Virus record (IMG/VR): IMGVR_UViG_3300034072_000758
Span: 363,030-427,029 of that record
Length of the DNA: 64,000 nt
Strand: one strand, 5' to 3'
Origin: a virus
A program made the position numbers and the translations under genes. Shown here piece after piece: positions 5,737 through 55,769 of this stretch. The notes below the pieces were generated by a model. That model did no database searches and was not told the DNA's origin. It worked only from the letters and a program-made list of their open reading frames with translations. Positions within the stretch are counted from its first letter, which is position 1. Each line of letters begins with the position of its first letter.

Positions 5737-5746
5737 GGGAATATAA

Positions 5747-10549: not shown

Positions 10550-10595
10550 GAATACGATTTTTTCTAAGTCTGTAGTTAATAAAAACGACTTTCTC

Positions 10596-10603
10596 CATAA
10601 ATA
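10596..10603 (+). promoter_or_regulatory. T4-like late promoter CATAAATA
   Basis: Located 67 bases upstream of the coiled-coil fibre gene, in the only sizeable gap of the fibre module. Predicted transcription start about 10609. The leader then carries a GGTTAATAGTTAACC inverted repeat (about 10619) and AGGAG before the ATG. Confidence 0.6.
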
Positions 10604-10670
10604 CTGGTGCCTGAATTTTGGTTAATAGTTAACCAACACTTTAGTTTCAAACACCCTATAGGAGATACGT

Positions 10671-21723: not shown

Positions 21724-24495
21724 ATGTATGTTGACGCACTTTTTGATAGAAAAACCGATACTATTCTCGTAGCAGAGAGAGTAAATGGGGTGCGTGAGTT
21801 TGTTGAATACAGACCAGAACATACTCTTTATTATTACCATCCGTCCGGTTCTTCTCGATCCATCTTTGGTGATCCACTTAAAAAGTTTGTCACCAACGAT
21901 ATGTTCAAGTTCAATAATGAACTGAAACGTCTACAAGACAAAGGCACCCAGATTTTCGAATCGGACGTGAACCCGGTGTTCCGTTCTTTGGGTAAACACT
22001 ACAAGGGCGTGGACTCTCCTGTCCTGAACGTTGCGTTTTTCGATATTGAGACCGACTTTCACAAGGAACGCGGGTTCGCCGACCCGAAAGACCCGTTCAA
22101 TGCCGTTACCGCTATTACGGTCTATTTCAGCCATACCGAAAAGATGCACACGCTCGTGCTCAAGCCGCCCACGGTCGATACCGAAGAGGCGTTCAAAATC
22201 TGTGCTGATTTTGAAGATACCGAGCTATACATCAACGAAGTCGATCTCTTGAAACGCTTTTTGGAAATGATCGATGATGTTGACGTATTCACCGGCTGGA
22301 ACTCTGAGACTTACGATATTCCATACACAGTAAACCGCATAGAGCGCCTTCTAGGTAAGGAAGCTCTCGCGGCCCTGTGTCTATGGGATAAGCTTCCGCG
22401 CGAACGCATTGTTATGAAGTTCAACAAGGAATATCAAACCTTTGATTTCCCCGGTCGCCCGCACTTAGATTATCTGGAACTTTATAAGAAACATAACCCC
22501 CAACAGCTTCACAGCTATAAGCTGGATTTCGTATCCGAACATGAAGTTGGCGCGAACAAGACCAAATACACCGGTACTCTGGATGATCTTTACAAAAAAG
22601 ATTTTCGTCTGTTCATCGAATATAACAGAACTGACGTTGGCCTTCTTGTAAAGATCGATAAGAAGAAGAAATTCTTGGACTTGGCCAACCAAGTCGCTCA
22701 CGACAATGGTGTCGTTCTCCGCACGACTATGGGTTCGGTGGCGCTGGTCGAACAGGCTATTTTAAACGAGATTCACGAAATGGGTCTCGTAGCACCAAAT
22801 CGCCGCGTTGAAGAGGAAGAAATCGAAGACCTGTCCGATGATACGGATGGCTTCTACGACGATGAAGATGATGATGACGGTGAAGACGATGGCAAGAAGC
22901 CGGTCGTTGGCGCTTATGTCGCGGTCCCGAAAGTTGGTATTCAAACCGACATCGGATGTATCGACATTAATTCCCTGTATCCGTCTTGTATTCGCGCTTT
23001 GAATATGAGTCCTGAGACTCTGGCTGGACAGTTTATTCCGACTTATACGGACGCTTTTATCAATGAGCGTCTTGCTGTTCTACCTAAGAACAAGAAAGCC
23101 GACGCATGGGAAGGCGTGTTCTTCTGTAAAGAATACGGGCTGATCATGGATGAAGATACCGAGCATCCGATCACGTTGGAAGCTCTGGATGGTCGTCATA
23201 TCACGAAGACTGGTAAAGAGTGGTATGAGTTCATCTTTAATCCAGCCAACCATGTTTGTATCACTGCTAACGGAACCTTGTTCAAAACGGACAAGGATGG
23301 GATCATCCCTGCCCTTTTGGCTCGCTGGTATTCCCAGCGTAAAGAGATGCAAAAGAATGAGCGTAAGTATACGGACCTTCTTAAAGACCCGGATTTAGGT
23401 GAAGATCAGCGCAAGGAATACAAATTCCTCGAAGGTTTCTGGAACCAGCGCCAACAAGCACGTAAGATTTTGCTCAACTCCCTGTACGGCGCTCTGTTGA
23501 ATGAAGGTCTGCGTTTCTATGACGCTCGTTTGGGTAAATCTGTTACTCTGACTGGACGTTCTATTGTCAAGCATATGAACTCCAAGATCAATGAAATCAT
23601 TACCGGTGTATACGACTACAAGGGTGATGCGATCTTCTATTCAGATACCGACTCGTCATATTTCTCTGCCTATCATTTCCGTGATCAATATCTTCCGTTG
23701 GAATGGAACCGAGATAACGTCATCGACATCTACGACATGATCTCGGATATGGTCAACGAGAGCTTTCCGGGTTTCATGAACAAGGCTTTCAACACCTCTA
23801 TGGAGCGTGGTGGAGTTATTAAGGGTGGCCGCGAACTGGTGGCATCGAAGACGTTGTTCATTCGTAAGAAGAAGTATGCGGCCCTTATGTACGACAAAGA
23901 AGGGGATCGCTACGACCTTGACGGCAAGCCGGGTAAGCTGAAAGCGATGGGTCTTGATCTAAAGCGCGCCGACACGCCGAGCTATATGCAAGACTTCCTC
24001 AAGGACATCCTAATGGGCGTCTTGACCGATACACCGATTGACGATCTGTACGAGCGCACCAAGCGATTCCGCGAAGAGTTCGTGGATAAGGACGGTTGGG
24101 AAAAAGGAACGCCCAAGGCAATCAAATCTTTCTCGGACTTCCTGAAACGCTTTGAAACGGGCGACACATCTAAAACAATTCCCGGCCACGTCCGCGCTGG
24201 GATCAATTGGAATCGCATGTGTGATGTTTATGATGATCGTTTTGCCATGCGTTGTACGGATGGCACCAAAGTTATCATGTGTGCGCTGAAAAAGAATGCT
24301 TTGGGTATGGAGCGTATCGCTTATCCGATTGACGAACCGCATTTACCAGACTGGTTCAAGGAGCTTCCATTTGATCATGAGGCGATGGAAGAAACCATTA
24401 TCGATAAGAAACTCGATAACCTGATTGGTGTTCTTGAGTGGGACATCAATAAAACTAAGAATTTCATGGCCGAAGACCTGTTCGTGTTTGAATAA
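21724..24495 (+). CDS. family B DNA polymerase (T4 gp43-like)
   Basis: 923 aa, the replicative polymerase. The N-terminal 3'-5' exonuclease has FFDIETDF (Exo I). The polymerase domain has DINSLYPS (motif A, catalytic Asp about 417), KILLNSLYGALLNEG (motif B) and YSDTDSSYFS (motif C, Asp about 641 and 643). An unusually acidic insertion (about residues 360-390, runs of Asp/Glu) lies between the exonuclease and palm. AGGTGG precedes the ATG. The sliding clamp is the next gene. Confidence 0.96.
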   Translation: MYVDALFDRKTDTILVAERVNGVREFVEYRPEHTLYYYHPSGSSRSIFGDPLKKFVTNDMFKFNNELKRLQDKGTQIFESDVNPVFRSLGKHYKGVDSPVLNVAFFDIETDFHKERGFADPKDPFNAVTAITVYFSHTEKMHTLVLKPPTVDTEEAFKICADFEDTELYINEVDLLKRFLEMIDDVDVFTGWNSETYDIPYTVNRIERLLGKEALAALCLWDKLPRERIVMKFNKEYQTFDFPGRPHLDYLELYKKHNPQQLHSYKLDFVSEHEVGANKTKYTGTLDDLYKKDFRLFIEYNRTDVGLLVKIDKKKKFLDLANQVAHDNGVVLRTTMGSVALVEQAILNEIHEMGLVAPNRRVEEEEIEDLSDDTDGFYDDEDDDDGEDDGKKPVVGAYVAVPKVGIQTDIGCIDINSLYPSCIRALNMSPETLAGQFIPTYTDAFINERLAVLPKNKKADAWEGVFFCKEYGLIMDEDTEHPITLEALDGRHITKTGKEWYEFIFNPANHVCITANGTLFKTDKDGIIPALLARWYSQRKEMQKNERKYTDLLKDPDLGEDQRKEYKFLEGFWNQRQQARKILLNSLYGALLNEGLRFYDARLGKSVTLTGRSIVKHMNSKINEIITGVYDYKGDAIFYSDTDSSYFSAYHFRDQYLPLEWNRDNVIDIYDMISDMVNESFPGFMNKAFNTSMERGGVIKGGRELVASKTLFIRKKKYAALMYDKEGDRYDLDGKPGKLKAMGLDLKRADTPSYMQDFLKDILMGVLTDTPIDDLYERTKRFREEFVDKDGWEKGTPKAIKSFSDFLKRFETGDTSKTIPGHVRAGINWNRMCDVYDDRFAMRCTDGTKVIMCALKKNALGMERIAYPIDEPHLPDWFKELPFDHEAMEETIIDKKLDNLIGVLEWDINKTKNFMAEDLFVFE

Positions 24496-28461: not shown

Positions 28462-29022
28462 ATGAAAATGATAGATAGTGAAAATCCCGCATCTGTAAAA
28501 TTACAGAAAGACGCATTTGAGTTCGCTGCGACCGCGCACCGTTCGATTAATCAACTGCGTAAGTATACCCAGACGCCGTATGAAGGTCATCCCTTTGCGG
28601 TGGGTCAAATGCTGATCAATCTGGTTCCAGAAGCAACACCGGAAGATGTCGCATCCGCGTATTTACATGACGTGGTTGAAGATACTCCCGTGAAGATCGA
28701 AGAAATCTATGAGAAGTTTGGTCCGGTGGTTGGACAAAACGTTGATGGCTTGACTGACGTAAGCAAGCCAGAAGACGGCAACCGCAAATTCCGTAAGGAA
28801 ATGGACAAAGAACATACTCTGGAACAACCAGTCAATGTTCTGAACATCAAGCTGGTGGACTTTCTTCATAACCAAGAGAGTATCTTGGAATATGACCCGG
28901 ACTTTGCGACCGTGTGGTGTCGTGAAAAGGCCAAGATTATCTTCGATCCGAGGATGGATAAGGCGTCTCCGGTCCTTCTGGAAAAGGCTCGTAACGCATT
29001 CAGGTCGTGGTACAAAGCTTGA
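28462..29022 (+). CDS. HD-domain hydrolase, (p)ppGpp hydrolase-like (SpoT/Mesh1 type)
   Basis: 186 aa. The pattern FAATAHRS, HPFAVGQML, ASAYLHDVVEDT, IYEKFGPVV, VDGLTDV and IKLVDFLHNQESI matches the HD hydrolase part of RelA/SpoT and small Mesh1-like alarmone hydrolases. There is no synthetase domain. If active, it could remove (p)ppGpp and blunt the host stringent response. The start is placed at 28462 (or 28468) because the promoter covers the upstream ATG; no Shine-Dalgarno is present. Confidence 0.75.
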   Translation: MKMIDSENPASVKLQKDAFEFAATAHRSINQLRKYTQTPYEGHPFAVGQMLINLVPEATPEDVASAYLHDVVEDTPVKIEEIYEKFGPVVGQNVDGLTDVSKPEDGNRKFRKEMDKEHTLEQPVNVLNIKLVDFLHNQESILEYDPDFATVWCREKAKIIFDPRMDKASPVLLEKARNAFRSWYKA

Positions 29023-29047
29023 CAATACTTTGATCCTATACTATAAG
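29019..29047 (+). promoter_or_regulatory. sigma70-like promoter
   Basis: TTGACA (29019-29024) overlapping the previous stop codon, 17 bases, TATAAG (29042-29047). Leader of about 25 bases with AAAGGGA before the ATG at 29078. Confidence 0.65.
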
Positions 29048-29077
29048 TGTGGGGAAACTAATATAAAGGGACATTTT

Positions 29078-29989
29078 ATGGACTATATCTTCGACATCGA
29101 TGGTACTATTGCGGACGTTAAGCACCGCTTACACTTCATCGAGAATGGTAATCGTGACTGGCCGGGGTTCTTCAAGGCCATGATTCACGACTCGCCTATC
29201 GTTGATATGTTTACGATGGCCCATGAATTGAAAAAGGCTGGCGGAAACATTTTGGTTTCGACCGCGCGCCCCGATGACTATCAGCAAGAGACTATCGACT
29301 GGATGGTTGCTTTGGGCTTCCCATACGACAAGCTGTATATGCGCGCGGCTGGTGACTTCCGCCGCGACAGCATTGTCAAGGAAGAACTGCTGTTACAGAT
29401 GGTTCAAGACGGCTATGATCCGAAGGTCGCATTCGATGACAAGGTTAATGTTATCGAAATGTACCGCAACAACGGTCTGATCGCTTTACAGTGCGACGCT
29501 GACGCCGAGAAGATCAGCCCGTATGCTGGTCAAACTCTGCTTCACGTTCTGGTCGGGCCTTCGGGCGCGGGTAAGTCTACGTATATCGCCAAGAACTACA
29601 AGGAAACCGATGTGGTGTCTTCGGACGGCATTCGTCTCTGGTTGTTCGGTGATTTTGATACGGCGCATACCCCGGAAAATTTGAAGCGTACTTGGTCTAC
29701 GGTCTATGCGTTCGTCGCTGCCCGTCTGGCGAATGGTATTTTCACGGTTCTCGATGCGACCAACATCAAGGCCAAGGATCGTCTGGAAGTTTTCAAGCAT
29801 GTCCCCAAGGGCGTTCTCGTGAACTACATTCTGATTGATCGTCCTCTGGATGATAAGCTGCGGGATCGTGGCTGGCGTCCTGAGTCTTTGGTGTTGAAGC
29901 ACCACAAGACTTTCCAGTCGTCCGTTAAGTCGGCTCTGGCTGGGGATGACCGCCCTGACGTGTTCGTATTCGATAAGCGTGAAAAGTAA
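29078..29989 (+). CDS. polynucleotide 3'-phosphatase/5'-kinase with phosphatase-first domain order
   Basis: 303 aa, almost the T4 Pnkp length (301). The N-terminal half is a HAD phosphatase: FDIDGT (Asp6, Asp8), LVSTARPDDY, RRDSIVKEELLL, and FDDKVNVIEMYRNNG, which parallels the T4 phosphatase DDRTQVVEMW segment. The C-terminal half is a P-loop kinase: GPSGAGKST (residues 160-168), SSDGIRLWL carrying the candidate general base, and LDATNIKAKDR. T4 Pnkp has the kinase first, so the order here is reversed, as in animal PNKP. It repairs RNA or DNA ends by inference. TAATG couples it to the next gene. Confidence 0.85.
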   Translation: MDYIFDIDGTIADVKHRLHFIENGNRDWPGFFKAMIHDSPIVDMFTMAHELKKAGGNILVSTARPDDYQQETIDWMVALGFPYDKLYMRAAGDFRRDSIVKEELLLQMVQDGYDPKVAFDDKVNVIEMYRNNGLIALQCDADAEKISPYAGQTLLHVLVGPSGAGKSTYIAKNYKETDVVSSDGIRLWLFGDFDTAHTPENLKRTWSTVYAFVAARLANGIFTVLDATNIKAKDRLEVFKHVPKGVLVNYILIDRPLDDKLRDRGWRPESLVLKHHKTFQSSVKSALAGDDRPDVFVFDKREK

Positions 29990-31143
29990 TGTATATTTCG
30001 CAAGAACAGGTGGATGCCTATCTCGCCAAAGTGGATTTATCCGACAGCGAGAATGGTGTCCACGCCATCAATATCATCAAGGACCGGGTTATTCAGGCAA
30101 TTTCTGAATGGTCCGGCCTTGAACCGGCTGTGATTAATCCAGACCCAATCGTTGAAGTCTCAGATAACTTCGACAATTTGTATTATGACGAGAACGCCAT
30201 CGCGCGTGACCCTCGTTATACGCATTATGTCGATGCTCACCACATTTTCCGTACCCAAATGACATCGGCTATTCCGCCGTTCCTGAGAAAGTACGCCAGA
30301 TCATACACGGGCCTCGACACATCCTTGTTCCTTGCGGCACACGGGCTGGTCTATCGCCGGGATGTTATCGACCGCACCCATGTGGGTGAACCACACCAAT
30401 TGGACCTATGGGTTCTGAATCGGTCGCGCCGCTTGAATCGGAATGATCTGGTGGATATGATCGGTGTGGTTTTGAACACATTGCTTCCCGGCTGTAAATA
30501 TCGTTGTAATGAGACCTATCACCCATACACTATCAATGGTCTCGAAGTTGAAGTGTGGTTTGGTACGGAAAAGACAGGGCGGTGGGTGGAAGTATTAGAA
30601 TGTGGTGAAGCGCACCCTTGGCTTCTGGACGATACCTATATGAACAGCAGACATGACCGTTGGACCGGCCTTGCTATGGGTATCGGTCTGGATCGTCTGT
30701 GTATGCTTCTCAAGGGCATTGATGACATTCGCCTGTTGCGCAGCACGGACCCTCGCGTGGCCGTTCAGATGGCGAACCTTAAGCCGTACAAGGGAGTCAG
30801 TAAGCAACCGGCCATCAACCGCGATATGTCTCTGTGCGTTCAAGAAGTCGATATGGAAAATATCGGCGGTCGTGTCCGTGAGGCTCTTGGCGAGCGCGCC
30901 GATTGGTTGGAAGAAATCGAGCTTCGTAAGGATTTCTCTTATGATGAAATACCCGATCAGGCGCGGGAGCGTCTGGGTATCCAACCGGGTCAGCGCAATA
31001 TTCTGTTGCGTTTGATCCTGCGTTCCCCCACCGATAGCATTCCCAAAGAAATTGGGAATGAAATTTATGACATCGTATACCGAGTCATTAACGAAGGAGC
31101 CGGGGGATACGAAATAAAATACTCTGGAAAAGGAAAAGAATAA
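29989..31143 (+). CDS. phenylalanyl-tRNA synthetase-like protein (PheS core plus FDX-ACB domain)
   Basis: 384 aa. Class II aminoacyl-tRNA synthetase of PheRS type. Motif 2 is YRRDVIDRTHVGEPHQLD (from residue 122), paralleling the PheS R-D-x-x-D-x-x-H pattern. Motif 3 is GLAMGIGLDRLCMLLKGIDD (from about 227). From about residue 267, YKGVSKQPAINRDMSLCV opens a ferredoxin-fold anticodon-binding domain, normally at the PheT C terminus. This is the monomeric layout of mitochondrial PheRS. Whether it charges tRNA-Phe is untested; the window also holds two tRNA-Phe(GAA) genes. Confidence 0.85.
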   Translation: MYISQEQVDAYLAKVDLSDSENGVHAINIIKDRVIQAISEWSGLEPAVINPDPIVEVSDNFDNLYYDENAIARDPRYTHYVDAHHIFRTQMTSAIPPFLRKYARSYTGLDTSLFLAAHGLVYRRDVIDRTHVGEPHQLDLWVLNRSRRLNRNDLVDMIGVVLNTLLPGCKYRCNETYHPYTINGLEVEVWFGTEKTGRWVEVLECGEAHPWLLDDTYMNSRHDRWTGLAMGIGLDRLCMLLKGIDDIRLLRSTDPRVAVQMANLKPYKGVSKQPAINRDMSLCVQEVDMENIGGRVREALGERADWLEEIELRKDFSYDEIPDQARERLGIQPGQRNILLRLILRSPTDSIPKEIGNEIYDIVYRVINEGAGGYEIKYSGKGKE

Positions 31144-31978: not shown

Positions 31979-32710
31979 ATGAGTAATACTTTAGTAACCG
32001 CATGGTTTGATATTGGTAGAGTAAATTGGAACCAACACTCAAGAAGCGCGGAAGAATATATCGACCGATTTTCTAATCTAGCAAAGCTAGATACCAATTT
32101 GATAATTTACACTACCCGCAATTACGCGGGTAGACTTGAGAAGATCAGAGCCGATAACGGATTCTCGAATTTGACGAAAGTTGTAATCGTTGAATTTCCC
32201 GATCCAAAGTACGCCGATATATTAAAAGCTATTGAAGAAACCCAACAACATCCTGATTTCACTAAGCATTTAATGGCTGATGTTACAGGTCTCCCTCAGT
32301 ATCAATATCCCGAATACGTGCTCGTTACTACCCTCAAGTCCTCATTCGTGGCGGATGCCATTGAACGTGGGTTAGTAACCACCGAACATGCCACTTGGGT
32401 AGATTTCGGCTTCATGGTGACACCATCAACTGAACTGGTTATCCCACCATTGTATCCTGAGCATATTTCAGCTTTTCCGCTCGAAGAAATCGCGGACCCG
32501 GATGCGTTCATTTATGACTCTATCGTCAATGCGTATTCAACACCGTCCACCAAATTATTCACAGCCCCGGTAACCATGTGGCGTTCATTATCAGATGAAA
32601 TGCTTATTGCTTTGGAACTGGTGCTTGAAAATGGAATGGTGGCCAAAGATACCGTTCTGTTTTCCATTTGTAACATTAAATTCCCGCATGTTTTTGAGAG
32701 CAATCGATAA
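31979..32710 (+). CDS. HtrL/YibB-like protein (putative glycosyltransferase fold)
   Basis: 243 aa. The N terminus LVTAWFDIGRVNWNQHSRS, then EEYIDRFSNLAKLDTNLIIYT and later ATWVDFGF, match the HtrL/YibB family. That family is linked to polysaccharide loci and thought to be glycosyltransferase-like. Shorter than typical members. First gene of a four- or five-gene sugar-related run; TAATG coupling to the next. Confidence 0.65.
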   Translation: MSNTLVTAWFDIGRVNWNQHSRSAEEYIDRFSNLAKLDTNLIIYTTRNYAGRLEKIRADNGFSNLTKVVIVEFPDPKYADILKAIEETQQHPDFTKHLMADVTGLPQYQYPEYVLVTTLKSSFVADAIERGLVTTEHATWVDFGFMVTPSTELVIPPLYPEHISAFPLEEIADPDAFIYDSIVNAYSTPSTKLFTAPVTMWRSLSDEMLIALELVLENGMVAKDTVLFSICNIKFPHVFESNR

Positions 32711-34086
32711 TGAATAAGCTTGTAATATTTGATCTTGACGGTGTTTTGCTTGATAGCCGAGAACTCCATTATGAATCGCTCAACGCGGCCTTAGCCAAGG
32801 TTGGCCAAGAATATATCATCACCCGCGACGAACACCTGAGCCTGTACGATGGCCTCAACACCACGAAGAAGCTTCGTATGCTCACCGAGCGTAAGGGCCT
32901 CCCAGCGGGCTTACACCAGCAAGTATGGGAAGACAAGCAAGCGGCCACCTTTGACCTGATCAAGCGCTTCCCACTGTCTCCCAAGGCCGTACAAGCGTGT
33001 CAGGAGATTAAGAAACGCGGCTGGAAGATCGCCGTGGCCTCCAACAGCATCCGCGAGACTGTAAAGCTGGCTTTGATGGCTATTGGTATCATGGAATATG
33101 TAGACGTGTTCGTAAGCAACGAAGACGTGACCCGGACGAAGCCTTACCCGGAAATGTATTGGCAAGCTATGACCAAATTGAACGCCTTGCCCCGCAACAC
33201 CATCATCTGTGAAGACTCACACATTGGCCGACAAGGCGCGCTGGATTCGGGTGCTAATCTGTTACCTATCGAAAATTCAGAGACTTGGACCGTCTCTGAC
33301 ATAACAAATCTTATTCAAGAAGTGGAAAACAAATCTATGGAACGCATTGCGTGGATTGATAAAAAGCTCAACGTTCTTATCCCGATGGCGGGCGCTGGAT
33401 CGCGCTTCGCCGATGCGGGCTATACCTTCCCTAAGCCTCTGATCGAGGTCCGTGGTAAGCCGATGATACAAGTGGTCGTTGAGAATCTTAACATACAAGC
33501 TAATTATATTTTCGTGGTCCAGAAAGCGCACTATGAAAAATATGATCTGGAACATGTGCTGAATAACATTGCCCCCGGCTGTAAGATTATTCAGACCGAT
33601 GGCTTGACCGAAGGCGCTGCCTGTACTGCCCTGCTGGCCAAGGAATATATCGACAACGATGCCCCGCTGTTTTTTGCCAACTCGGATCAATTTGTGGAAT
33701 GGAACAGCAATGAAGTCCTGTATGCCTTCAACGCGGATGGGATCGACGGTGGTATCGTTACGTTCGATGCCAATCACCCGAAATGGTCTTATGCCAAGGT
33801 AGGCGAAGATGGTTTTGTTTCGGAAGTTGCTGAGAAGAAAGTAATCTCCAACGATGCTACGGTCGGCTTCTATTGGTGGAAACAAGGTTCGGATTTTGTA
33901 AAATATGCCGAACAAATGATAGAAAAGAATATCCGTGTCAACAATGAGTTCTATGTTTGCCCGGTATTTAATCAGGCTATCGAAGACGGTAAGAAGATTC
34001 GTGTCAAGAAGACCGATGGTATGTGGGGGATCGGAACGCCGGAAGACCTCAACACCTTCTTGGAAAACTACAAGGGTAAAATTTAA
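32710..34086 (+). CDS. fusion: HAD phosphatase plus sugar-phosphate nucleotidyltransferase
   Basis: 458 aa. Residues 1-200 form a beta-phosphoglucomutase-type HAD domain (FDLDGVLLDS, VASNS, KPYPEMY, CEDSHIG). From about residue 220, an NTP-transferase domain has the nucleotide-binding loop IPMAGAGSRFADAGYTFPKP and a later ANSDQFVEW metal-binding segment. The combination would make or remodel an activated sugar (NDP-sugar). Exact sugar unknown. Downstream genes look like glycan transfer or hydrolysis enzymes. Confidence 0.85.
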   Translation: MNKLVIFDLDGVLLDSRELHYESLNAALAKVGQEYIITRDEHLSLYDGLNTTKKLRMLTERKGLPAGLHQQVWEDKQAATFDLIKRFPLSPKAVQACQEIKKRGWKIAVASNSIRETVKLALMAIGIMEYVDVFVSNEDVTRTKPYPEMYWQAMTKLNALPRNTIICEDSHIGRQGALDSGANLLPIENSETWTVSDITNLIQEVENKSMERIAWIDKKLNVLIPMAGAGSRFADAGYTFPKPLIEVRGKPMIQVVVENLNIQANYIFVVQKAHYEKYDLEHVLNNIAPGCKIIQTDGLTEGAACTALLAKEYIDNDAPLFFANSDQFVEWNSNEVLYAFNADGIDGGIVTFDANHPKWSYAKVGEDGFVSEVAEKKVISNDATVGFYWWKQGSDFVKYAEQMIEKNIRVNNEFYVCPVFNQAIEDGKKIRVKKTDGMWGIGTPEDLNTFLENYKGKI

Positions 34087-42954: not shown

Positions 42955-44412
42955 ATGAGCAAAGAAGCAACTCTCAAGATTTTGGACGAAGTGAACGTCA
43001 AATTTGACGGCCTCGATCCTTCCACTCGTCGCAAGATTAGTGACGCATGTAAGTATTTCATGCCCTATGCGCGCCACACCCCCCTATTCAAGTTAGGACG
43101 CTGGGATGGATATGTTAACTTCGCTACTGTTGGTGGTGGAACATATCTCAATCTTCTTGAGCAAGTCTTACCTATCGTAGTTGAAGAGGGCTACGATCTC
43201 AAGCTCGATGATCGACGGGTCAATTACAATTTCGATTTCAAGCCAATTGGAACGGATTTCCTTTCGGATACTCTTTGGCCGGAAGGTCACCGTTTCGCGG
43301 GCGAACCGATCATGCTGCGTGAAGATCAGGTAGAGGCCGTCAATCGATACCTTGCCAACCCTCATGGCATCCAGTGTCTCTCTACGGGGTTTGGTAAGAC
43401 GATCCTCTCCGCCACATTGTCAAAGATTGTGGAGCCTTATGGTCGATCAATTGTGATCGTCCCGTCTAAGACACTTGTTGAACAGACCGAAGAAGATTTT
43501 AAGAACATCGGTCTTGATGCTGGTGTGTTTTTCGGTGACCGCAAAGAATGGAATAAGACCCACACGATTTGTACATGGCAATCACTTTCTGTGCTCACAA
43601 AGAAAACTCGCCGCGATGAAGTGGAATGTACGATCCACGATTTCCTAGATGGCGTGATCGCAGTTCAAGTGGACGAATGCCACGGCCTGAAAGCCAACGA
43701 GCTTCGTGATGTAATGTGTGGTCCTATGGCCAATGTGCCAATCCGCTGGGGAATGACCGGCACTATTCCAAAGCAAGACTTCGAGCGAGTGTCCTTACAA
43801 ATTACCATCGGTGGTGTCGTTGGCGAAGTTCGGGCTAAAGAACTTCAAGACGCCGGGTTCCTGTCAAAATGTGAGATCAACATTCTTCAAACTGAGGATG
43901 ATCATGTGTCGTTCGCGGCCTATGACAAGGAATATAAATTCCTGACATCAGACGAAGATAGGTTGCGCTGGATTGGTGAACTCGCCAATAGCCTAGAAGG
44001 CAACACGTTGGTTCTTGTCAATCGCATTGAAACTGGCAAGTCCTTGACGGCCATGATCGATAATGCGGTATTCGTCTCTGGTGGGATGAAAACTAAAGCG
44101 CGCAAAGAAGAGTTCAAGGACACTAACCAATCGGACAACAAAACCCTTGTGGCAACATTCGGGGTTATGTCTACGGGTGTGAATATCCCGAAGATTCACA
44201 ATCTCATTCTGGTAGAATGCGGCAAGTCGTTTGAGCGTACTATTCAGTCGGTAGGCCGTGTTCTTCGCCGTGCTGATGGTAAAAGCAAAGCTGACATCTA
44301 CGATGTGTGCTCTACGCTCAAGTTCTCCAAGAAGCATCTTACCGAGCGTAAGAAGTATTACAAGGAAGCTGAATACCCATTCAAGATCACGAAAGTGAAA
44401 TACAATGCGTAG
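42955..44412 (+). CDS. uvsW: UvsW-like SF2 helicase
   Basis: 485 aa, same class as T4 UvsW (503 aa), which unwinds branched DNA and R-loops and shuts off origin-primed replication. Motif I STGFGKTIL, Ia VPSKTLVEQ, II VDECHGLKA, III GMTGTIP, and later motif VI QSVGRVLRRADGK are present. The N-terminal about 100 residues match the UvsW DNA-binding region preceding the helicase core (RKISDACKYFMPYA). Overlaps the next gene by eight bases. Confidence 0.9.
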   Translation: MSKEATLKILDEVNVKFDGLDPSTRRKISDACKYFMPYARHTPLFKLGRWDGYVNFATVGGGTYLNLLEQVLPIVVEEGYDLKLDDRRVNYNFDFKPIGTDFLSDTLWPEGHRFAGEPIMLREDQVEAVNRYLANPHGIQCLSTGFGKTILSATLSKIVEPYGRSIVIVPSKTLVEQTEEDFKNIGLDAGVFFGDRKEWNKTHTICTWQSLSVLTKKTRRDEVECTIHDFLDGVIAVQVDECHGLKANELRDVMCGPMANVPIRWGMTGTIPKQDFERVSLQITIGGVVGEVRAKELQDAGFLSKCEINILQTEDDHVSFAAYDKEYKFLTSDEDRLRWIGELANSLEGNTLVLVNRIETGKSLTAMIDNAVFVSGGMKTKARKEEFKDTNQSDNKTLVATFGVMSTGVNIPKIHNLILVECGKSFERTIQSVGRVLRRADGKSKADIYDVCSTLKFSKKHLTERKKYYKEAEYPFKITKVKYNA

Positions 44413-48682: not shown

Positions 48683-49033
48683 CTATAAGTTCATTCGGCG
48701 TTTTGCGTTGGCGAGATAGGTGTGAATGTTCTCCTTACCAATCTCGTTCATGCTGTGTACCGTGTAGGCTGGGAGCTTGAGGTCATTGTCTATACAATGA
48801 TCTACCAACCATTTGGCACAATCATAGCCTGTTTTTTCTACGTTGAACACCCCGCCATAATGTAGATCAGCCAAATCGTGATCGAAAGACACATGTGCGG
48901 GGAGGCCGTTATTTATGATGTAATCTTTGAACTCGTCAAAGTTACGGACAATAACGTATGAAGCCACCGGAAGCTTCACCCAAGTGACTTCCGATGGCTC
49001 ACGCATGTCATCTAAGAACAGATGATATGTCAA
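48683..49033 (-). CDS. cREC-type receiver-like domain protein, 116 aa
   Basis: HLFLDDMREP, VRNFDEFKDYI, HVSFDHDLADL, KTGYDCAKWLVDHC and VHSMNEIGKENI follow the family described as cyclic-phosphate-processing receiver domains (cREC_REC). Conserved DD, FDHDL and HS are candidate active-site residues. These occur in phages and defence-linked loci; the biochemical role is not established. ATGA coupling with the AAA+ gene upstream. Confidence 0.7.
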   Translation of the reverse strand: MTYHLFLDDMREPSEVTWVKLPVASYVIVRNFDEFKDYIINNGLPAHVSFDHDLADLHYGGVFNVEKTGYDCAKWLVDHCIDNDLKLPAYTVHSMNEIGKENIHTYLANAKRRMNL

Positions 49034-50265
49034 AGAAGGCTATCCCATGTGTTGCGATGGCGGGATGCCACGCGCATCAGTTCGACTTCAACCACTTGGT
49101 CTTCGAACTTGATCTGATAAGTGAACGTGCCAATCTTGCGGTTGATACCAACCAGATGTTCACCACTGAACAGGATGGGGTGACACCAAACACGAATGAC
49201 TTTGCGCTGAGGCGCGTCATTGGTTTGGACCGCATCTTCGTCACCATCTTCGTCGTCGTCCTCTCCATACGCTTCGTATTCGAGGAAGTCTTCTTCAACC
49301 GAAATACCAGCCTTAGCAGCCGAGATAGGGTCGTAGATAGTGGTCATGTGTGAACGCTCACCCAGCTTTTTACCGAGGAAGTAAATGTCCACGCGGTTTT
49401 CATCTGTCCCGAACGGATTGATCCACAGTTCCTTTTGGTTCTGTCTCAACACCGGCTCACCATTCAGTGTCGTGCGAATAGTGAACATGCTGGTTTCGTT
49501 AGCCGGGGTGACGTTCAGGACAGAAATAGCCTGTGTCACGGTTTCCGAATAGCGATTCATTTCTTCAACCAGCGACTTCAAGATGTCGAAGTTGAGCTTT
49601 TCGCCCATCGTGAACTTCAAGTTCAGAATTTGCGCGGTCTTAGACTGGTCTTTCAGGCAGTCCTTACAATATTCCGTGATGAAGTCTTCTTCCAGACCCT
49701 TGTATTCGAAGCGATAAAATACGCGACTAGGACGGTTCGTGATATGCGAGTTCAGGCGGTACTCGTCATTACAAGTCAGCAGGAACAGTTTTTTACTGTT
49801 GAACACGCCATCCAGAAGGGTCAGGAGGTGTGGCTGATGTTCGTCCTTGTCATACACCTTCTCGAACTCGTCAAAGATGACCACAGCCGGGGTATCGATG
49901 CTCGACATGAAGGTATTGAAAGGATCGCCGTAGAACGGGGAGTTGATCAGGATAACCGGAAGGCCCGTTTCCTGAGCCAGCAAGGCGATGCGCTTGGCCA
50001 ACAGGGTTTTACCCGAACCCTTTTCACCGATCAGCAGAGCGCCGGTTTGCGCTGGACGATCATGGAAGGTTCCGAGGATGCGGTTCGCGCGAGTGTCGAT
50101 GTCACCGTAAATCTTCTTCGGCATTTCGAAATCATCGACTGTTTCGAGGAAAAAGCCTCGTGTTTGCGAAAGCTTAACCACGTAGGTCTTCGGTTCGAGA
50201 AAATCAGTCGTGGCGCTGGAACTGGCGATGAATACGCAGTTACCTTCTTTCGTATAATGGGTCAT
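49030..50265 (-). CDS. AAA+ ATPase, 411 aa
   Basis: Walker A GEKGSGKTLLAKR (about residues 80-92), Walker B AVVIFDEFEKVYD, sensor 1 LLTCNDEYRLN, arginine region NRPSRVFYRFEY. The C-terminal third has a very acidic patch (EDDDEDGDED) and a beta-rich end. Substrate unknown: remodelling of DNA or protein complexes is inferred. GTTAAC-type promoter upstream. Confidence 0.8.
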   Translation of the reverse strand: MTHYTKEGNCVFIASSSATTDFLEPKTYVVKLSQTRGFFLETVDDFEMPKKIYGDIDTRANRILGTFHDRPAQTGALLIGEKGSGKTLLAKRIALLAQETGLPVILINSPFYGDPFNTFMSSIDTPAVVIFDEFEKVYDKDEHQPHLLTLLDGVFNSKKLFLLTCNDEYRLNSHITNRPSRVFYRFEYKGLEEDFITEYCKDCLKDQSKTAQILNLKFTMGEKLNFDILKSLVEEMNRYSETVTQAISVLNVTPANETSMFTIRTTLNGEPVLRQNQKELWINPFGTDENRVDIYFLGKKLGERSHMTTIYDPISAAKAGISVEEDFLEYEAYGEDDDEDGDEDAVQTNDAPQRKVIRVWCHPILFSGEHLVGINRKIGTFTYQIKFEDQVVEVELMRVASRHRNTWDSLL

Positions 50266-50401: not shown

Positions 50402-50740
50402 ATGCTAATGGACTTTTCGCATCTGAGTACAGAAGAACTCAGTAAACGTATGATGGAGCTTTCCAAAAAATTCAATATCGCACAGCGCACTAATAGTGGT
50501 TCTACCGAGCAACTACAAGTCGTTTTGAACAGTCTTCGTTTTGAATTACAATCCAGAATGAGCACGAAGATTGCCGAGGACATGTATAAGAAGATACCAA
50601 CCGTGGTAGATTCTGATCCAGACCTCAACGAGAAGAATTATAAGCCGAAGCCGCCGAAAACGGACACTGAAAAGAAAAAAGAAAAGATCACTCAGAACCC
50701 GTTCCAAAAAACATCTAAACCAACTTCGGGAGAATTTTAA
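50402..50740 (+). CDS. hypothetical charged protein, 112 aa
   Basis: ATG 50402 or 50408; probable leaderless message. N-terminal helix (LSTEELSKRMMELSKKFNIA), then a Lys/Pro-rich tail (KPKPPKTDTEKKKEKITQ) that is probably disordered. TAATG coupling to the next gene. Confidence 0.65.
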   Translation: MLMDFSHLSTEELSKRMMELSKKFNIAQRTNSGSTEQLQVVLNSLRFELQSRMSTKIAEDMYKKIPTVVDSDPDLNEKNYKPKPPKTDTEKKKEKITQNPFQKTSKPTSGEF

Positions 50741-51444
50741 TGGACGAAGACGACGATACACCGATGATCACGCAGCGCTTTCATTTCAATGCGCAAGCCA
50801 CACGCTACATCGATAACGCGGTGTTTCCCTTCATCATCGAAGCCAGAGCGCTATTTGATTATCACAGCGAAAATGAAGACGAAATCGTTTTCTGCCTAGA
50901 GAAAATCCAATACTGGATCGACCATGTTCTTGATAATTCAGTCATGTTTTCGGTCTCCAACAAAACCGCTCGATCCATTTTCCTTAGTGAAAATCAAGCC
51001 CCCGATAACATGATGATCATTACCCCGGATGACCCGGATGATGATATGTTCTTGGCGGTAGTCTTGGCAAAACTTCAAGCTTTGGGTGGTGATCATATCA
51101 CTTTTGGTTCTCTGGAATTGACACGCCCCAACCGCATGGGTATTTCGTCCATCATCTTCAACGGTGCTGATAAGGAGCCATGCTCTCTTCTGCCTAGTGG
51201 AGAGGATTGGTTCGGTGACGCCCCTCGTAGGTATTTTGATAAGCCGTGGTGGGAACGTGATGACGGAAGCTCATTCGATGCTTTGCCGTCCGATAACCAA
51301 GATCATACGGTTCGTCCAGCTTGGGCTTTCGATTTCGAGTTCTTACGAGAGAAGCACCCAATCACCCCAAATAGACCAAAACCAACCCCACCAACAGGCG
51401 GCGTCGGGTTCGTAGCAAAAATTATTGACGGCGGCAAAAAGTGA
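50740..51444 (+). CDS. hypothetical protein, 234 aa
   Basis: No family recognised. Acidic N-terminus, mixed alpha/beta body, Pro-rich segment near the end (NRPKPTPPTGG). Coupled on both sides (TAATG before, GTGA after), so it is co-expressed with the DnaE-like fragment. Confidence 0.65.
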   Translation: MDEDDDTPMITQRFHFNAQATRYIDNAVFPFIIEARALFDYHSENEDEIVFCLEKIQYWIDHVLDNSVMFSVSNKTARSIFLSENQAPDNMMIITPDDPDDDMFLAVVLAKLQALGGDHITFGSLELTRPNRMGISSIIFNGADKEPCSLLPSGEDWFGDAPRRYFDKPWWERDDGSSFDALPSDNQDHTVRPAWAFDFEFLREKHPITPNRPKPTPPTGGVGFVAKIIDGGKK

Positions 51445-51962
51445 ACCGACTTGTAAATCGGGATGGAAGCATTATCGTAAGCGCTGAGGATATTTCCAAG
51501 GCACTTACGACCGCCTGTCCCTCCGACAAAATCTTTGTAGATCGCATCACCGATGATGTACGTGCCTACAATGAATGGTGTGAGAAGCGCTTCAAGCCAG
51601 ATTTCAAGATCGAAGTGAGGGAATATACGCCACCCACCCCGGAAGATCATGTTCAGCAATCACAAATCTGGAACATACCCTCTGGCTATAAAACGGTTGA
51701 TGCTAGAGAATATGTTTTGGGGTTGTGTCAGACCCCGGCTGAACTGGATCGCGTAAATTACGAAATGGCTCTATTTGAAGAACGTGAGCTAATGCCACTT
51801 CTCCAATTGATGATTTATTTGGTTGACGAGTTCCGCAAACACAAAATCGTTTGGGGTGTCGGTCGCGGGTCATCTTGTGCCAGTTATGTCCTGTTCCTGA
51901 TTGGTATCCACAAAATCGATTCAATCAAGTACGGATTGGACGTTCACGAGTTCCTTAAGTAG
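51441..51962 (+). CDS. DnaE-like fragment 1 (palm N-terminal piece, GRGSS motif)
   Basis: 173 aa, GTG start overlapping the upstream stop (GTGA). The last 60 residues follow bacterial replicative polymerase III alpha: LDRVNYEMALFEERE..., then VWGVGRGSSCASYVLFLIG (from about residue 138) and IDSIKYGLDVHEFLK. The cellular protein reads GRGSAAGSLVAYxLGIxxIDPLxYxLLFERFL. It ends where cellular DnaE continues into PDIDIDF. That next motif is the start of the separate gene at 55185. No PHP domain is seen. Function unknown. Confidence 0.75.
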   Translation: MNRLVNRDGSIIVSAEDISKALTTACPSDKIFVDRITDDVRAYNEWCEKRFKPDFKIEVREYTPPTPEDHVQQSQIWNIPSGYKTVDAREYVLGLCQTPAELDRVNYEMALFEERELMPLLQLMIYLVDEFRKHKIVWGVGRGSSCASYVLFLIGIHKIDSIKYGLDVHEFLK

Positions 51963-52245
51963 ATTCGATTATTTCGAGATCGTTGAGGCCATTCAACACC
52001 ATTTCGGAAGGAATGGTGTTGTTGTGATTCAGGCTCCACAAAGCGCTGGTATGGGGGATATTCGCTTTGTGTAAAGCTTCTTGAGCAAGCGACAATCCCA
52101 TTTCGTCACGAAGGGTAGCGCTCATTTCCTTTGCGCTGGTGAAGGTATAATTCTTCGTCACCGGAGCAATCAGATAACCCATATGAAAGGTCATATTATC
52201 AAAATCGATATGAAAATATCGATCCGCTGATTTACAAATGAACAT
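51955..52245 (-). CDS. hypothetical protein, 96 aa
   Basis: Beta-rich start (FICKSADRYFHIDFDNMTF), helical end. GGAGG before the ATG. Separates DnaE-like fragment 1 from the following plus-strand genes; overlaps it tail-to-tail by eight bases. Function unknown. Confidence 0.65.
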   Translation of the reverse strand: MFICKSADRYFHIDFDNMTFHMGYLIAPVTKNYTFTSAKEMSATLRDEMGLSLAQEALHKANIPHTSALWSLNHNNTIPSEMVLNGLNDLEIIEST

Positions 52246-52274
52246 ATGGCCTCCATGTATAACGTAATTATTTG

Positions 52275-52302
52275 ATTATCTCATATTTTTTACATATGTC
52301 AA
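52275..52302 (-). promoter_or_regulatory. sigma70-like promoter
   Basis: Minus strand TTGACA (52302-52297), 16 bases, GATAAT (52280-52275). Confidence 0.65.
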
Positions 52303-52315
52303 TAGAAATAAATTG

Positions 52316-52344
52316 TTGAGACTCCATCAATATGATACTATATT
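52316..52344 (+). promoter_or_regulatory. sigma70-like promoter
   Basis: TTGAGA (52316-52321), 17 bases, TATATT (52339-52344), for the long plus-strand operon beginning at 52366. Confidence 0.6.
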
Positions 52345-52365
52345 ATAATAAAGGAAATACTATAC

Positions 52366-52869
52366 ATGAGAATACTTTTAGAAAACAATAAATCTTTCCA
52401 TCTAAATGAGATACCAGATACAGTCGATCACATTTATTATTGTGTACTCGATTATTCTAATCCCAATACTGATGTTGATTTCTTTCAAATTCCGTTGATC
52501 TTCATGGAACAGTTTCCTAGACCATCGGCGGAATTAATGATTGGGAAGTATCGTATTCAAATGCCGTTGGATTGGTCAGTAATCATCGCGGATAAAAACC
52601 TTGGTTTGCTTGAGGTCATGGAAATCAAGCATTTGAATGATCGCCAGTTCGACGCATTCGTTCTTAATCCTTCGGCTTATATGCCGCAATTTTACGACAT
52701 CAGTATCAATAATATCTACCCAGATGTGAACTGGTGCGTACCTAAGCTGAAAAAAGGGCATATTCTCGTAGTGCCTCTGTCAGACGAACCCGATCCGCCT
52801 TGTGCGTATTTCGTCAAGGAAACAAACAAGCTTCACGACAGCTTGGATATTTCGAGAATTTTATCATAG
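52366..52869 (+). CDS. hypothetical protein, 167 aa
   Basis: No family recognised; beta-rich with many aromatic residues (DHIYYCVLDYSNPNTDVDFF). AAAGGAAA before the ATG. First gene of an operon that runs with small overlaps to the dNMP kinase. Confidence 0.65.
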   Translation: MRILLENNKSFHLNEIPDTVDHIYYCVLDYSNPNTDVDFFQIPLIFMEQFPRPSAELMIGKYRIQMPLDWSVIIADKNLGLLEVMEIKHLNDRQFDAFVLNPSAYMPQFYDISINNIYPDVNWCVPKLKKGHILVVPLSDEPDPPCAYFVKETNKLHDSLDISRILS

Positions 52870-52881
52870 GAAGAATGTAAC

Positions 52882-53220
52882 ATGTCAAGAAAAAACAAGA
52901 TTTTAGCAATGGTCCAAGACCATGATCGTTTTATAGGTATCGGAAACGTCAAGCAATCGGGCTACCTCGCCAAGGAAATTTTTCATGAATTGCTTGGTTA
53001 TGTTGATGATCTGGAAGAACGTGTCTCGAAGCTGGAAGCGTCAACTACAGTTACCGTCGCGTCTTCTGTTCCAGAAGGTCTTATCCAGCCAAAGCCGGTA
53101 AAAAAGGCCACCGCACCAAAAAATACATTGAAAACCGCCGCAACTACGGTTAAGAAAGAAAGTGAATCGGTTCCTTCCACACCGTCAAAGCGTCCTGTAA
53201 AGAAGAATGTCAAAGTTTAA
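52882..53220 (+). CDS. small protein with basic Lys/Ala/Pro tail, 112 aa
   Basis: Short coiled coil around residues 35-50 (LGYVDDLEERVSKLEAS), then a low-complexity histone-H1-like tail (KPVKKATAPKNTLKTAATTV). Nonspecific DNA association is inferred. Overlaps the next gene by 14 bases. Confidence 0.65.
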   Translation: MSRKNKILAMVQDHDRFIGIGNVKQSGYLAKEIFHELLGYVDDLEERVSKLEASTTVTVASSVPEGLIQPKPVKKATAPKNTLKTAATTVKKESESVPSTPSKRPVKKNVKV

Positions 53221-53698
53221 GCTCGACATATTTGAGACCCTAGCGGCGGTTGATAGCCGCAACTTTGATTTCCTTCAAAGTAAATCCGATGATGAACGGA
53301 AAGCTTTCGCCCCCGTGGTGGTTATGCGATGGGCTTCCGCCATCACCGATGGTAAATCGGCGGGGAATCAGATCGTAGCGGTGAACGAGAAAGTCAATAA
53401 GGACTTCTGGGACATCGCCGATCACCCCGATTTACAATTCCGCCTGATGGCATCCGCAGGAATGGGGCGAAAACAACGCCACGAATGGATTGCTAACGCC
53501 AAGGCAGACAAGTCTTCCAATAAGCTCATTTCTTTCATACAGTCGATTTATCCTGAATACAATGACATGGAAGCGAACATAGTCCTGAGTAAGTTTAATA
53601 TTGACTCGTTCAAATACTTTTTAGTATCTTGTGCTGTAGAAGAAAAAGAAGAAAAAGACTTACTCAATGCCTTCAAAGCCCACCTTAAGTATCTTTAA
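53207..53698 (+). CDS. probable clamp-loader small subunit (gp62-like)
   Basis: 163 aa. Layout follows the gp62 family of T4-like phages: short N terminus, then FAPVVVMRWAS, a run including AVNEKVNKDFWDIADHPDLQ, then RLMASAGMGRKQRHEWI, as in the 'NxxxYP.LD..LQY..L.....RKR...W' pattern of cyanophage gp62. In T4, gp62 joins gp44 to load gp45. No gp44 gene is in this window. Similarity is distant, so the call is tentative. Confidence 0.55.
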   Translation: MSKFKLDIFETLAAVDSRNFDFLQSKSDDERKAFAPVVVMRWASAITDGKSAGNQIVAVNEKVNKDFWDIADHPDLQFRLMASAGMGRKQRHEWIANAKADKSSNKLISFIQSIYPEYNDMEANIVLSKFNIDSFKYFLVSCAVEEKEEKDLLNAFKAHLKYL

Positions 53699-54494
53699 GT
53701 GCCATAGTTGTGGTGGTGAGTTCAAGTCAAAGGCTCGCTACCAGAATCATGTATGCGGCGCACCGCTCAAATGCGATACACCTAAGCCCAAAAAAACCCC
53801 GCGCCCCAAGATCGTGAAGAACGACATATTTGAGTGCGAGTTTTGCGGTAAAGAATATAAATCACAAGCATCGTTTGAAAAACACGCTTGTGAAAAAAAG
53901 CTTCGCTACATAAATCGAGACGAACGAGTTGAACGGACAGCATTCGACATCTATGCCAAGTGGTATAGAATGACTATGTACCGCGACACTACGGAAATTC
54001 TTTTCATAAAGAGTCCTTCGTATTCGGCTTTTATAGATTTCGCCAAGTTCATTATCGAAGTCCAACCACCGCAAAAATGGTTTCACTATTTGGAGTGGTT
54101 GGTGAAAAAGCAAGTTCGAAATACCGATTGGTGTACTCAAGAAAAGTACAGCGAATACTTGCGGTTCCTGATCCGCAATGAGACCTACGAAAATGCCATC
54201 GAGAGATCGGCAATTGTCGTATTGAAGCACTGTGTTCAAAGCGGAATTGAGCCTCGTGATTTTATGGCCAAAGTGTCCATCCCGTTGGTGGTACTCTGGT
54301 TGGAAACTGGACGTATCAGCCCGTGGATTTTGCTGATGTCCGATAATAAAAACAAACTCATGTCTCGACTGTCCAATGAAGAAGCAACTCGCATGACGCA
54401 GATCATCGATGTCCAATATTGGAACAAAAAAATTGACTTCGACCAGAAAAGAAAGGATACTGCTAAGTATCTACTTAGACAGTTAGAAATATGA
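53667..54494 (+). CDS. tandem C2H2-type zinc-finger protein, 275 aa
   Basis: Two fingers: FKCHSCGGEFKSKARYQNHV and FECEFCGKEYKSQASFEKHA (C-x2-C-x12-H type, then HxC endings), joined by a basic Pro linker. The remaining 190 residues form an unknown helical domain (AKWYRMTMYRDTTEILFIKS). Probably DNA- or RNA-binding. Overlaps gp62-like by 32 bases and the next gene by four. Confidence 0.7.
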   Translation: MPSKPTLSIFKCHSCGGEFKSKARYQNHVCGAPLKCDTPKPKKTPRPKIVKNDIFECEFCGKEYKSQASFEKHACEKKLRYINRDERVERTAFDIYAKWYRMTMYRDTTEILFIKSPSYSAFIDFAKFIIEVQPPQKWFHYLEWLVKKQVRNTDWCTQEKYSEYLRFLIRNETYENAIERSAIVVLKHCVQSGIEPRDFMAKVSIPLVVLWLETGRISPWILLMSDNKNKLMSRLSNEEATRMTQIIDVQYWNKKIDFDQKRKDTAKYLLRQLEI

Positions 54495-54736
54495 GTGAAG
54501 AACAAGTACCGGCGGGAATGTATTCCCAGCCGCACAATATGGATACCCCAGACGATATTCCCGCTAGATTGTCTACCGATGGTTTGCGCGACCGTGCGTT
54601 GATTGCGCAGTGCTTGAAGGAAAATCAGCTTCTTAGGGAACAAATAAGTAAGCTGAACCGCAAAATGCTATCACTCTCCAATCAATTACATACCATAAAA
54701 AACGAACTTAAAAGAAAAGTCGATAAGAGGGACTGA
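54491..54736 (+). CDS. small coiled-coil protein, 81 aa
   Basis: ATGA overlap with the zinc-finger gene. The C-terminal half is a heptad coiled coil (ENQLLREQISKLNRKMLSLS) ending in a basic tail. Function unknown; size and placement would allow a transcription co-factor of gp33 type, without sequence support. Confidence 0.6.
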   Translation: MSEEQVPAGMYSQPHNMDTPDDIPARLSTDGLRDRALIAQCLKENQLLREQISKLNRKMLSLSNQLHTIKNELKRKVDKRD

Positions 54737-54739
54737 TAC

Positions 54740-55192
54740 ATGGCGTATGTCAGAGTAAATGATATGGAGACCGACCGCCGTTTGGACTTCATTGTATTCC
54801 CAGATGATGATTATCTGGACGATTTCTGGGAAAAGGAAGACCCGTTACTTAAAGCAATCACGCATGATTTCTTTAAGGATCGTGTTCGCTGGTGTGATCT
54901 GTCCCCGGTACATTATCGCTTTCTCATAATCGAGACAATGAAAGTCTTGACCAAACTGGACGATCCCCGATTCCGCGACGAAGACGATGAAGTGGTCAAG
55001 AACCTCAAGTTCCTCCTATGCGGCCTCGTGAGATCAACGCAGGATGTTACTGATGCTTTGGTGGAGTTCATTAAGATCGACCGTCTAAACGATGGTGAAG
55101 TTCTGTTCAATTTCACCATGTCCGCAAACATGCTTCTTGAACTGAGTAGGAAGCCGAAGAAAGGCTTGAAGGTCGTTGTAGATAATGGCTAA
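54740..55192 (+). CDS. hypothetical protein, 150 aa
   Basis: Acidic, helical (LDFIVFPDDDYLDDFWEKED). Overlaps the DnaE-like fragment 2 start by eight bases and is therefore coupled to it. Function unknown. Confidence 0.65.
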   Translation: MAYVRVNDMETDRRLDFIVFPDDDYLDDFWEKEDPLLKAITHDFFKDRVRWCDLSPVHYRFLIIETMKVLTKLDDPRFRDEDDEVVKNLKFLLCGLVRSTQDVTDALVEFIKIDRLNDGEVLFNFTMSANMLLELSRKPKKGLKVVVDNG

Positions 55193-55769
55193 GGTCAATA
55201 CAGACATCGATATAGATTTTGCGGATCGTGCGGCTATTCTCGTCAAATTGCCGCATATACCGGCTATGCTTCAAAAGAGCGATGGTCCGGCTCCGCACAA
55301 TTCTGGTGTTTATTTTCAGCAGCCTATCATTGACCCGATCAACAAGCTACCCATTCTGGATGCCGATCAAGCCGAAGAACACGGGTTCTTCAAGATCGAT
55401 TTTTTGAACAATTCATTGTATGACGGTATCCGAGACGAAGCTCACTTAATCGATCTCATGACACAAGAACCCATGTGGGAACTGTTGTGGAATGAGGCGG
55501 TGTCGTCTAAGCTGGCCCATTTGGGTAAGGCTCAAGCCATAATAAACAAAATACAACCACAAAATATTGAGGAACTGGCGATAGTAATATCGCTAACGCG
55601 ACCGGGTAAAGCGTACCTTCTGGATGCCTCCATTGAAGAAATTCGTGAGAATATTTGGAAGAAAGAAGAGAAATTTTATTTCAAAAAAGCTCACGCAATA
55701 GCTTACGCTACCTCCATTGTGGTTCAATTGAACTTCATGTGCGAAAAGCTGCTGGCTGATGACCGATGA
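55185..55769 (+). CDS. DnaE-like fragment 2 (palm with catalytic Asp motifs)
   Basis: 194 aa. Starts with NTDIDIDFADR, the PDIDIDF motif of bacterial polymerase III alpha (E. coli D401/D403; here Asp7/Asp9). Then HNSGVYF (HAGG region), GFFKIDFLNN (equivalent of the third catalytic Asp, D555), QNIEELAIVISLTRPG and FKKAHAIAYATSIVVQLNFM (SHAxAYAxxxYQTAYLK). All palm landmarks occur in order but the fingers are reduced to a few residues. It continues the sequence of the gene at 51441, 3.2 kb upstream. Confidence 0.75.
   Translation: MAKVNTDIDIDFADRAAILVKLPHIPAMLQKSDGPAPHNSGVYFQQPIIDPINKLPILDADQAEEHGFFKIDFLNNSLYDGIRDEAHLIDLMTQEPMWELLWNEAVSSKLAHLGKAQAIINKIQPQNIEELAIVISLTRPGKAYLLDASIEEIRENIWKKEEKFYFKKAHAIAYATSIVVQLNFMCEKLLADDR

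Follow-up and report, generated by a model that had tools for sequence, protein, structure and literature searches.

A minimal Pol III alpha core split between two genes of a phage with a family B DNA polymerase

Introduction

Apart from the split forms considered here, each DNA polymerase of the C family is one chain that carries PHP, palm, thumb and fingers domains. The DnaE of cyanobacteria is split and trans-spliced: it is likewise encoded by two genes, but these are cut at another position and their products are joined by a split intein. Unsplit C-family polymerases of phages (phrog_405 and phrog_11165, for example in Streptomyces phage Faust) share the palm core from the GRGS loop to the DxDxDF strand with the proteins described below but form a single long chain, and such an enzyme is usually the sole replicase of its phage. 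The closest described system is the split minimal Pol III alpha that Iyer et al. reported in 2021 from jumbo phages of group 2.2 that also have family B polymerases, and for which synthesis of one strand or repair was suggested (PMC7824862). Here we analyse such a pair of genes, which we call N half and C half, from a 64,000-nucleotide stretch of DNA of a giant phage (positions 363,030 to 427,029 of IMG/VR virus record IMGVR_UViG_3300034072_000758). This whole stretch is referred to as the window, and positions in it are counted from its first letter.

A previous reading of the window, made from the sequence alone, had proposed that it encodes a miniature DnaE-like polymerase split into two genes, and implied that this was novel. 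The kind itself was already known, since a split Pol III alpha core was published in 2021, and the structural reading was reached independently in that analysis (PMC7824862). What is added here is the breadth of its occurrence, the fixed boundary, the strict pairing, a rule for the gene neighbourhood together with its exception in this phage, and an altered nucleotide pocket. No experimental study of a split minimal Pol III alpha was found in searches of an open literature collection.

Results and discussion

Homology and extent of the two halves

The two genes, both recovered where the sequence-only reading had placed them, are as follows.

51441–51962, plus strand: N half of the split Pol III alpha core (173 amino acids), start codon GTG
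55185–55769, plus strand: C half of the split core (194 amino acids), start codon ATG

The proposed relation of each product to DnaE was borne out by Pfam, PHROG and PDB profile searches and by hhalign alignment to E. coli DnaE (reference taken from NC_000913). The N half matched Pfam DNA_pol3_alpha (PF07733) at E=3e-9, a match that passes the curated cut-off, and phrog_11127 ('DNA polymerase') at 7e-48. The C half matched phrog_11778 ('DNA polymerase') at 9e-56, and its match to the Pfam finger domain was weak (0.0017) and did not reach the cut-off. When family profiles of either half were compared with 177,635 PDB sequences, the matches were Pol III alpha chains only.

In the hhalign alignments, the halves match non-overlapping, colinear portions of E. 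coli DnaE. Residues 101–172 of the N half correspond to DnaE 321–392, and residues 1–100 gave no detectable counterpart in E. coli DnaE. The C half corresponds to three colinear pieces of DnaE, namely from 398, 529–642 and 751–767, which places the cut after the GRGSS loop and ahead of the DxDxDF strand. The N half comprises the initial palm portion with the nucleotide-binding loop GVGRGSS and stops just ahead of the DxDxDF position, and the C half carries the TDIDIDF strand followed by HNSGV, KIDFL, RPG and FKKAHAIAYA.

C-family polymerases are defined by three catalytic aspartates (E. coli D401, D403 and D555), and DnaE is distinguished from PolC by an extra aspartate (E. coli D405), which is an asparagine in PolC (PMC3919608). 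Residues D7, D9 and D72 of the C half correspond to D401, D403 and D555, D11 to D405 and K70 to E. coli K553, and all five are invariant across 74 aligned C halves; the invariance of D11 assigns the family to the DnaE type and not to PolC. Both motifs, DxDxD and K-x-D, were present in 110/110 C-half frames, a few of which were missed by the scripted second pattern and were read by eye as KIDML, KLDML or KIDFI. Since the catalytic aspartate motifs are all in the C half, one chain holds all metal ligands. The earlier claim of a split exactly at the catalytic motif, with three aspartates kept, therefore stands as regards the retention of the aspartates but not as regards a division of the triad: the cut parts the GS loop, which binds the nucleotide, from the metal site and leaves the triad itself undivided.

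Compared to E. coli DnaE (1160 amino acids), with which it shares the GRGS loop, D401/D403/D405/D555, K553, the RPG element and the equivalent of FNKSHSAAYA, the phage core consists of two chains with a combined length of 367 residues (173 + 194, close to the ∼370 estimated previously) and has a glutamate in place of R390. As anticipated in the sequence-only reading, PHP and most of the fingers are missing. Deletions have removed the thumb and ∼113 residues of the fingers (643–755, with YQEQVM and RRAMGKK among them); PHP and the whole region beyond 767 are absent as well. No PHP domain was detected in any protein of this phage genome or in ten related phages, with 14/14 control genomes positive, and a PHP domain supplied in trans was consequently rejected. 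The C-family architecture PHP + Pol3 + (HhH)2 is thus not matched, as PHP is lacking and Pol3 is partial; (HhH)2 was not searched separately.

The pair agrees with the system of Iyer et al. (phrog_11127 and phrog_11778) in its two proteins, in the cut, in the accompanying family B polymerase and in the lack of other Pol III domains: the N protein carries the NTP-binding part of the palm, and a separate C protein carries the metal- and template-binding parts. That system was described as having distantly located genes, whereas here they lie 3.2 kb apart and have lost their usual neighbours, a difference of arrangement and not of a defining protein feature. We conclude that the split minimal Pol III alpha core in this phage is almost certainly genuine.

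Occurrence, pairing and the fixed cut

In tblastn searches, 84 phage records matched each half across 80% or more of the query, including relatives of RaK2, 121Q, GAP32, CBB and PA5oct, and an alignment scan of IMG/VR returned at least 489 relatives of the C half. Among 20 records, all 20 contained the N half and 14 contained the C half, each always in single copy. The six records without a C half are contigs of at most 231 kb, and every record of at least 265 kb (12/12) has one copy of both. Co-occurrence, for which the sequence-only reading had proposed a survey of related phages, was therefore observed, but a fused version was not: none of 216 loci contained a single frame with both halves, and no fusion was seen at 110 C-half and 104 N-half loci. 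A sequencing artefact or relic is ruled out by the conservation and the separate locations of the halves. Identity among relatives is only 38–50%, with the metal-binding aspartates invariant.

The position of the cut is also conserved. The N frame terminates 9–14 residues past DSIKY (100 frames), and the C frames have a median of 10 and a maximum of 42 residues ahead of DxDxD, with fewer than 35 in 107/110.

Family B polymerases were detected in 17/20 records, among them 11 of the 12 of at least 265 kb. In this phage the enzyme is complete, as had been noted previously.

21724–24495, plus strand: complete family B DNA polymerase (923 amino acids; polymerase domain PF00136, 1.5e-25; exonuclease domain PF03104, 2.8e-19)

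Homologues of the N half labelled as cellular were limited to six contigs, assigned to bacterial metagenome-assembled genomes, one of them 335 kb long; we suspect that these are misbinned phage. A further observation concerns record IMGVR_UViG_3300017824_000198, in which the start of an unsplit C-family polymerase (9839–10567; phrog_405 1e-46, phrog_11165 9e-27) lies ∼4.3 kb downstream of the C half and has no PHP before the palm. This contig thus has a second gene of the Pol III alpha type besides the C half.

Location of the halves relative to replication genes

In 13 other records the halves are 30–244 kb apart, measured on the linear sequence, and once they are on opposite strands. Two given genes would lie as close as 3.2 kb in ∼1.5% of placements by chance, so the proximity seen in this phage hints at a link between the halves but is no proof of it. 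In ten other genomes out of ten, the C half lies ∼3–6 kb from the DnaB helicase gene, and in the same ten the N half is at most 2.6 kb from a gp44-type clamp loader gene. The usual C-half block comprises a UvsW-type helicase, phrog_11279, phrog_11758, a C2H2 zinc-finger protein, a convergent 125-aa gene and a primase. At many N-half loci, a GroES-like gene and a phrog_14844 gene lie between the N half and the clamp loader.

A proposed two-chain enzyme and its alternatives

From the computed homology, conserved active site, fixed cut, pairing and genomic context, we infer assembly, catalysis and a role as follows. The two genes probably encode two chains of one minimal DnaE-type enzyme, joined non-covalently and associated with the replisome. 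The N chain would supply the beginning of the palm, with a GRGSS loop that holds the nucleotide. The C chain would contribute what little remains of the fingers together with the two strands, DxDxDF and KIDFL, that carry the three metal-binding aspartates. Assembled in this way, without covalent joining, they would constitute a C-family nucleotidyltransferase of the pol-beta fold. That the halves form one active site is very likely, and that the enzyme is catalytically active only slightly less so.

Predicted structures are in part consistent with this proposal. An AlphaFold2 model of the C half, built with 74 natural relatives, had a pLDDT of 92.7 and a pTM of 0.78; in it, D7 and D9 are located at the first strand, whereas strand 71–75 carries D72. 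The best 15 PDB matches in a fold search with this model were all of the C family (14 Pol III alpha and one apo structure of PolC), albeit with modest E-values and TM-scores of ∼0.3–0.4.

Since PHP and the thumb, the greater part of the fingers and the regions for clamp, OB and tau binding are lost, the enzyme cannot be a processive replicase. It would most likely work distributively in a T4-like replisome next to the family B polymerase, where its job might be primer extension ahead of a hand-off, or gap repair. The DnaE of B. subtilis performs only a short extension of RNA primers (PMC3919608), and the linkage of the phage genes to those of primase, helicase and clamp loader in relatives fits this parallel. 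A role in primer extension is nevertheless put forward tentatively, and we consider the chances evenly divided as to whether the enzyme is a dNTP polymerase.

Several results weigh against the proposed enzyme or its role. Alone, the N half gave an AlphaFold2 model of lower quality (pLDDT 83.1, pTM 0.64), with reduced confidence at the GRGSS end, and this model failed in a PDB fold search, which returned no Pol III alpha and a best E of ∼1; the N half may be half a palm that needs its partner. For a place at the replisome, the support is of one kind, gene neighbourhood, and in this phage both linkages are broken: DnaB is ∼112 kb from the C half, even assuming a circular genome, and the clamp loader is 54 kb from the N half. 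Finally, the position of E. coli R390 is a glutamate in 54/55 N halves, and the segment with RRAMGKK (E. coli 709–715) is deleted. We take R390 and the RR of RRAMGKK to be residues that touch the triphosphate of the incoming dNTP in the published ternary structures, and their loss therefore means that ordinary dNTP polymerisation is not assured.

These last changes are the basis of the strongest alternative, that of one enzyme which does not carry out templated dNTP synthesis but another nucleotidyl transfer, pyrophosphorolysis or primer trimming, or a reaction using NTPs. It would account for a pocket in which the metal ligands are retained, the presumed triphosphate contacts are lost and residues W98, W158, R139 and K142 have become invariant in this family (74 aligned C halves). 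However, the core has also kept the GRGS loop, K70, the RPG element and the FKKAHAIAYA helix, and both genes are located among replication genes, so that we regard this alternative as somewhat unlikely. A related possibility, which is also speculative, is that the kept metal site and the rebuilt triphosphate side point to a non-standard second activity at the replisome, such as specialised primer extension or processing next to a family B replicase.

It is improbable that the two proteins act apart and share no active site. Their genes are usually far apart, once on opposite strands, and have differing neighbourhoods, as would be expected of separate functions, but each half is an incomplete palm, records of at least 265 kb never have one half alone, and the cut is fixed within a few residues. 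Slightly more improbable still is a non-catalytic, structural or regulatory relic that keeps the fold alone; the complete family B polymerase of the same phage and the large deletions would be in keeping with it, but not the invariance of the metal-binding aspartates at such low identity, nor the single-copy pairing in every near-complete genome. An intein or intron that interrupts DnaE, with the parts rejoined by trans-splicing, for which cyanobacterial DnaE offers a precedent, can be dismissed, since the N tails and C leads are too short to accommodate split-intein parts, in line with the absence of an intein noted in the sequence-only reading, and since the thumb and fingers are deleted and not encoded elsewhere.

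If the two-chain enzyme is real, its 367-residue core would be among the smallest known members of the C family, with every catalytic aspartate kept, and would reveal the minimal requirements of that family. Since the replisomes concerned already have a family B polymerase, the core also bears on how work is shared between two polymerase families. A published proposal holds that fragments of this type are similar to an ancestral state, and the core is relevant to that as well. With its fixed cut and strict pairing, the pair is directly testable as two small proteins.

Neighbouring genes in the window

In this phage the N module, which consists of three genes (50402–51962), lies between the UvsW-type helicase gene and the remainder of the C block, which extends from 52366 onward. 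The frequencies below refer to distinct loci of the respective half.

42955–44412: UvsW-type helicase, assigned by homology
50402–50740, plus strand: small gene of the N module (112 amino acids), family in 56/70 N-half loci
50740–51444, plus strand: gene overlapping the start of the N half by GTGA (234 amino acids), family in 21/70 N-half loci
52366–52869, plus strand: phrog_11279 protein (167 amino acids), upstream neighbour of the C half, same family in 60/95 loci
53207–53698, plus strand: phrog_11758 protein (163 amino acids), upstream neighbour of the C half, 83/95 loci
53667–54494, plus strand: C2H2 zinc-finger protein (275 amino acids, phrog_11058; PF13894, 2.3e-6), upstream of the C half in 87/95 loci
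54740–55192, plus strand: gene directly upstream of the C half and overlapping its start (150 amino acids), family in 9/95 loci

The zinc-finger gene reported between the halves was thus recovered, and its product is a candidate third partner of the split enzyme. The gene at 53207–53698 had been called gp62-like, an identity that was not upheld: it has no detectable similarity to gp62 (hhalign probability of 0.2% against T4 gp62), and PF16790 is absent in 11 genomes.

Between the halves lie a convergent open reading frame, a hairpin (51994–52021) and promoter-like sites at ∼52275–52344. The latter are two strong sites, one on each strand, arranged back-to-back in the region that separates the N half from the C-half operon. 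The location of these elements suggests that, in this phage, N half and C half are still transcribed as separate units.

Two further families accompany the halves elsewhere. A phrog_11637 gene (117–125 amino acids, conserved WWWxxNRxIPI; for example 10494–10853, minus strand, in locus L093) is convergent with the C half in 90/95 distinct loci and is absent beside the C half in this window. A phrog_14844 gene (99–136 amino acids, motif N-M/V-NARGD; for example 5551–5922 in locus L097) follows the N half in ∼64/70 loci.

Other genes of the window encode an AAA+ ATPase of 411 amino acids that is distinct from the gp44 clamp loader (49030–50265, minus strand; PF00004, 1e-8), a polynucleotide kinase-phosphatase-like protein (28892–29989; HAD_PNKP and AAA_33), the core of a class II tRNA synthetase of the phenylalanyl type (29989–31143; PF01409, 2.8e-31) and a nucleotidyl transferase domain fused to a HAD hydrolase (32710–34086).

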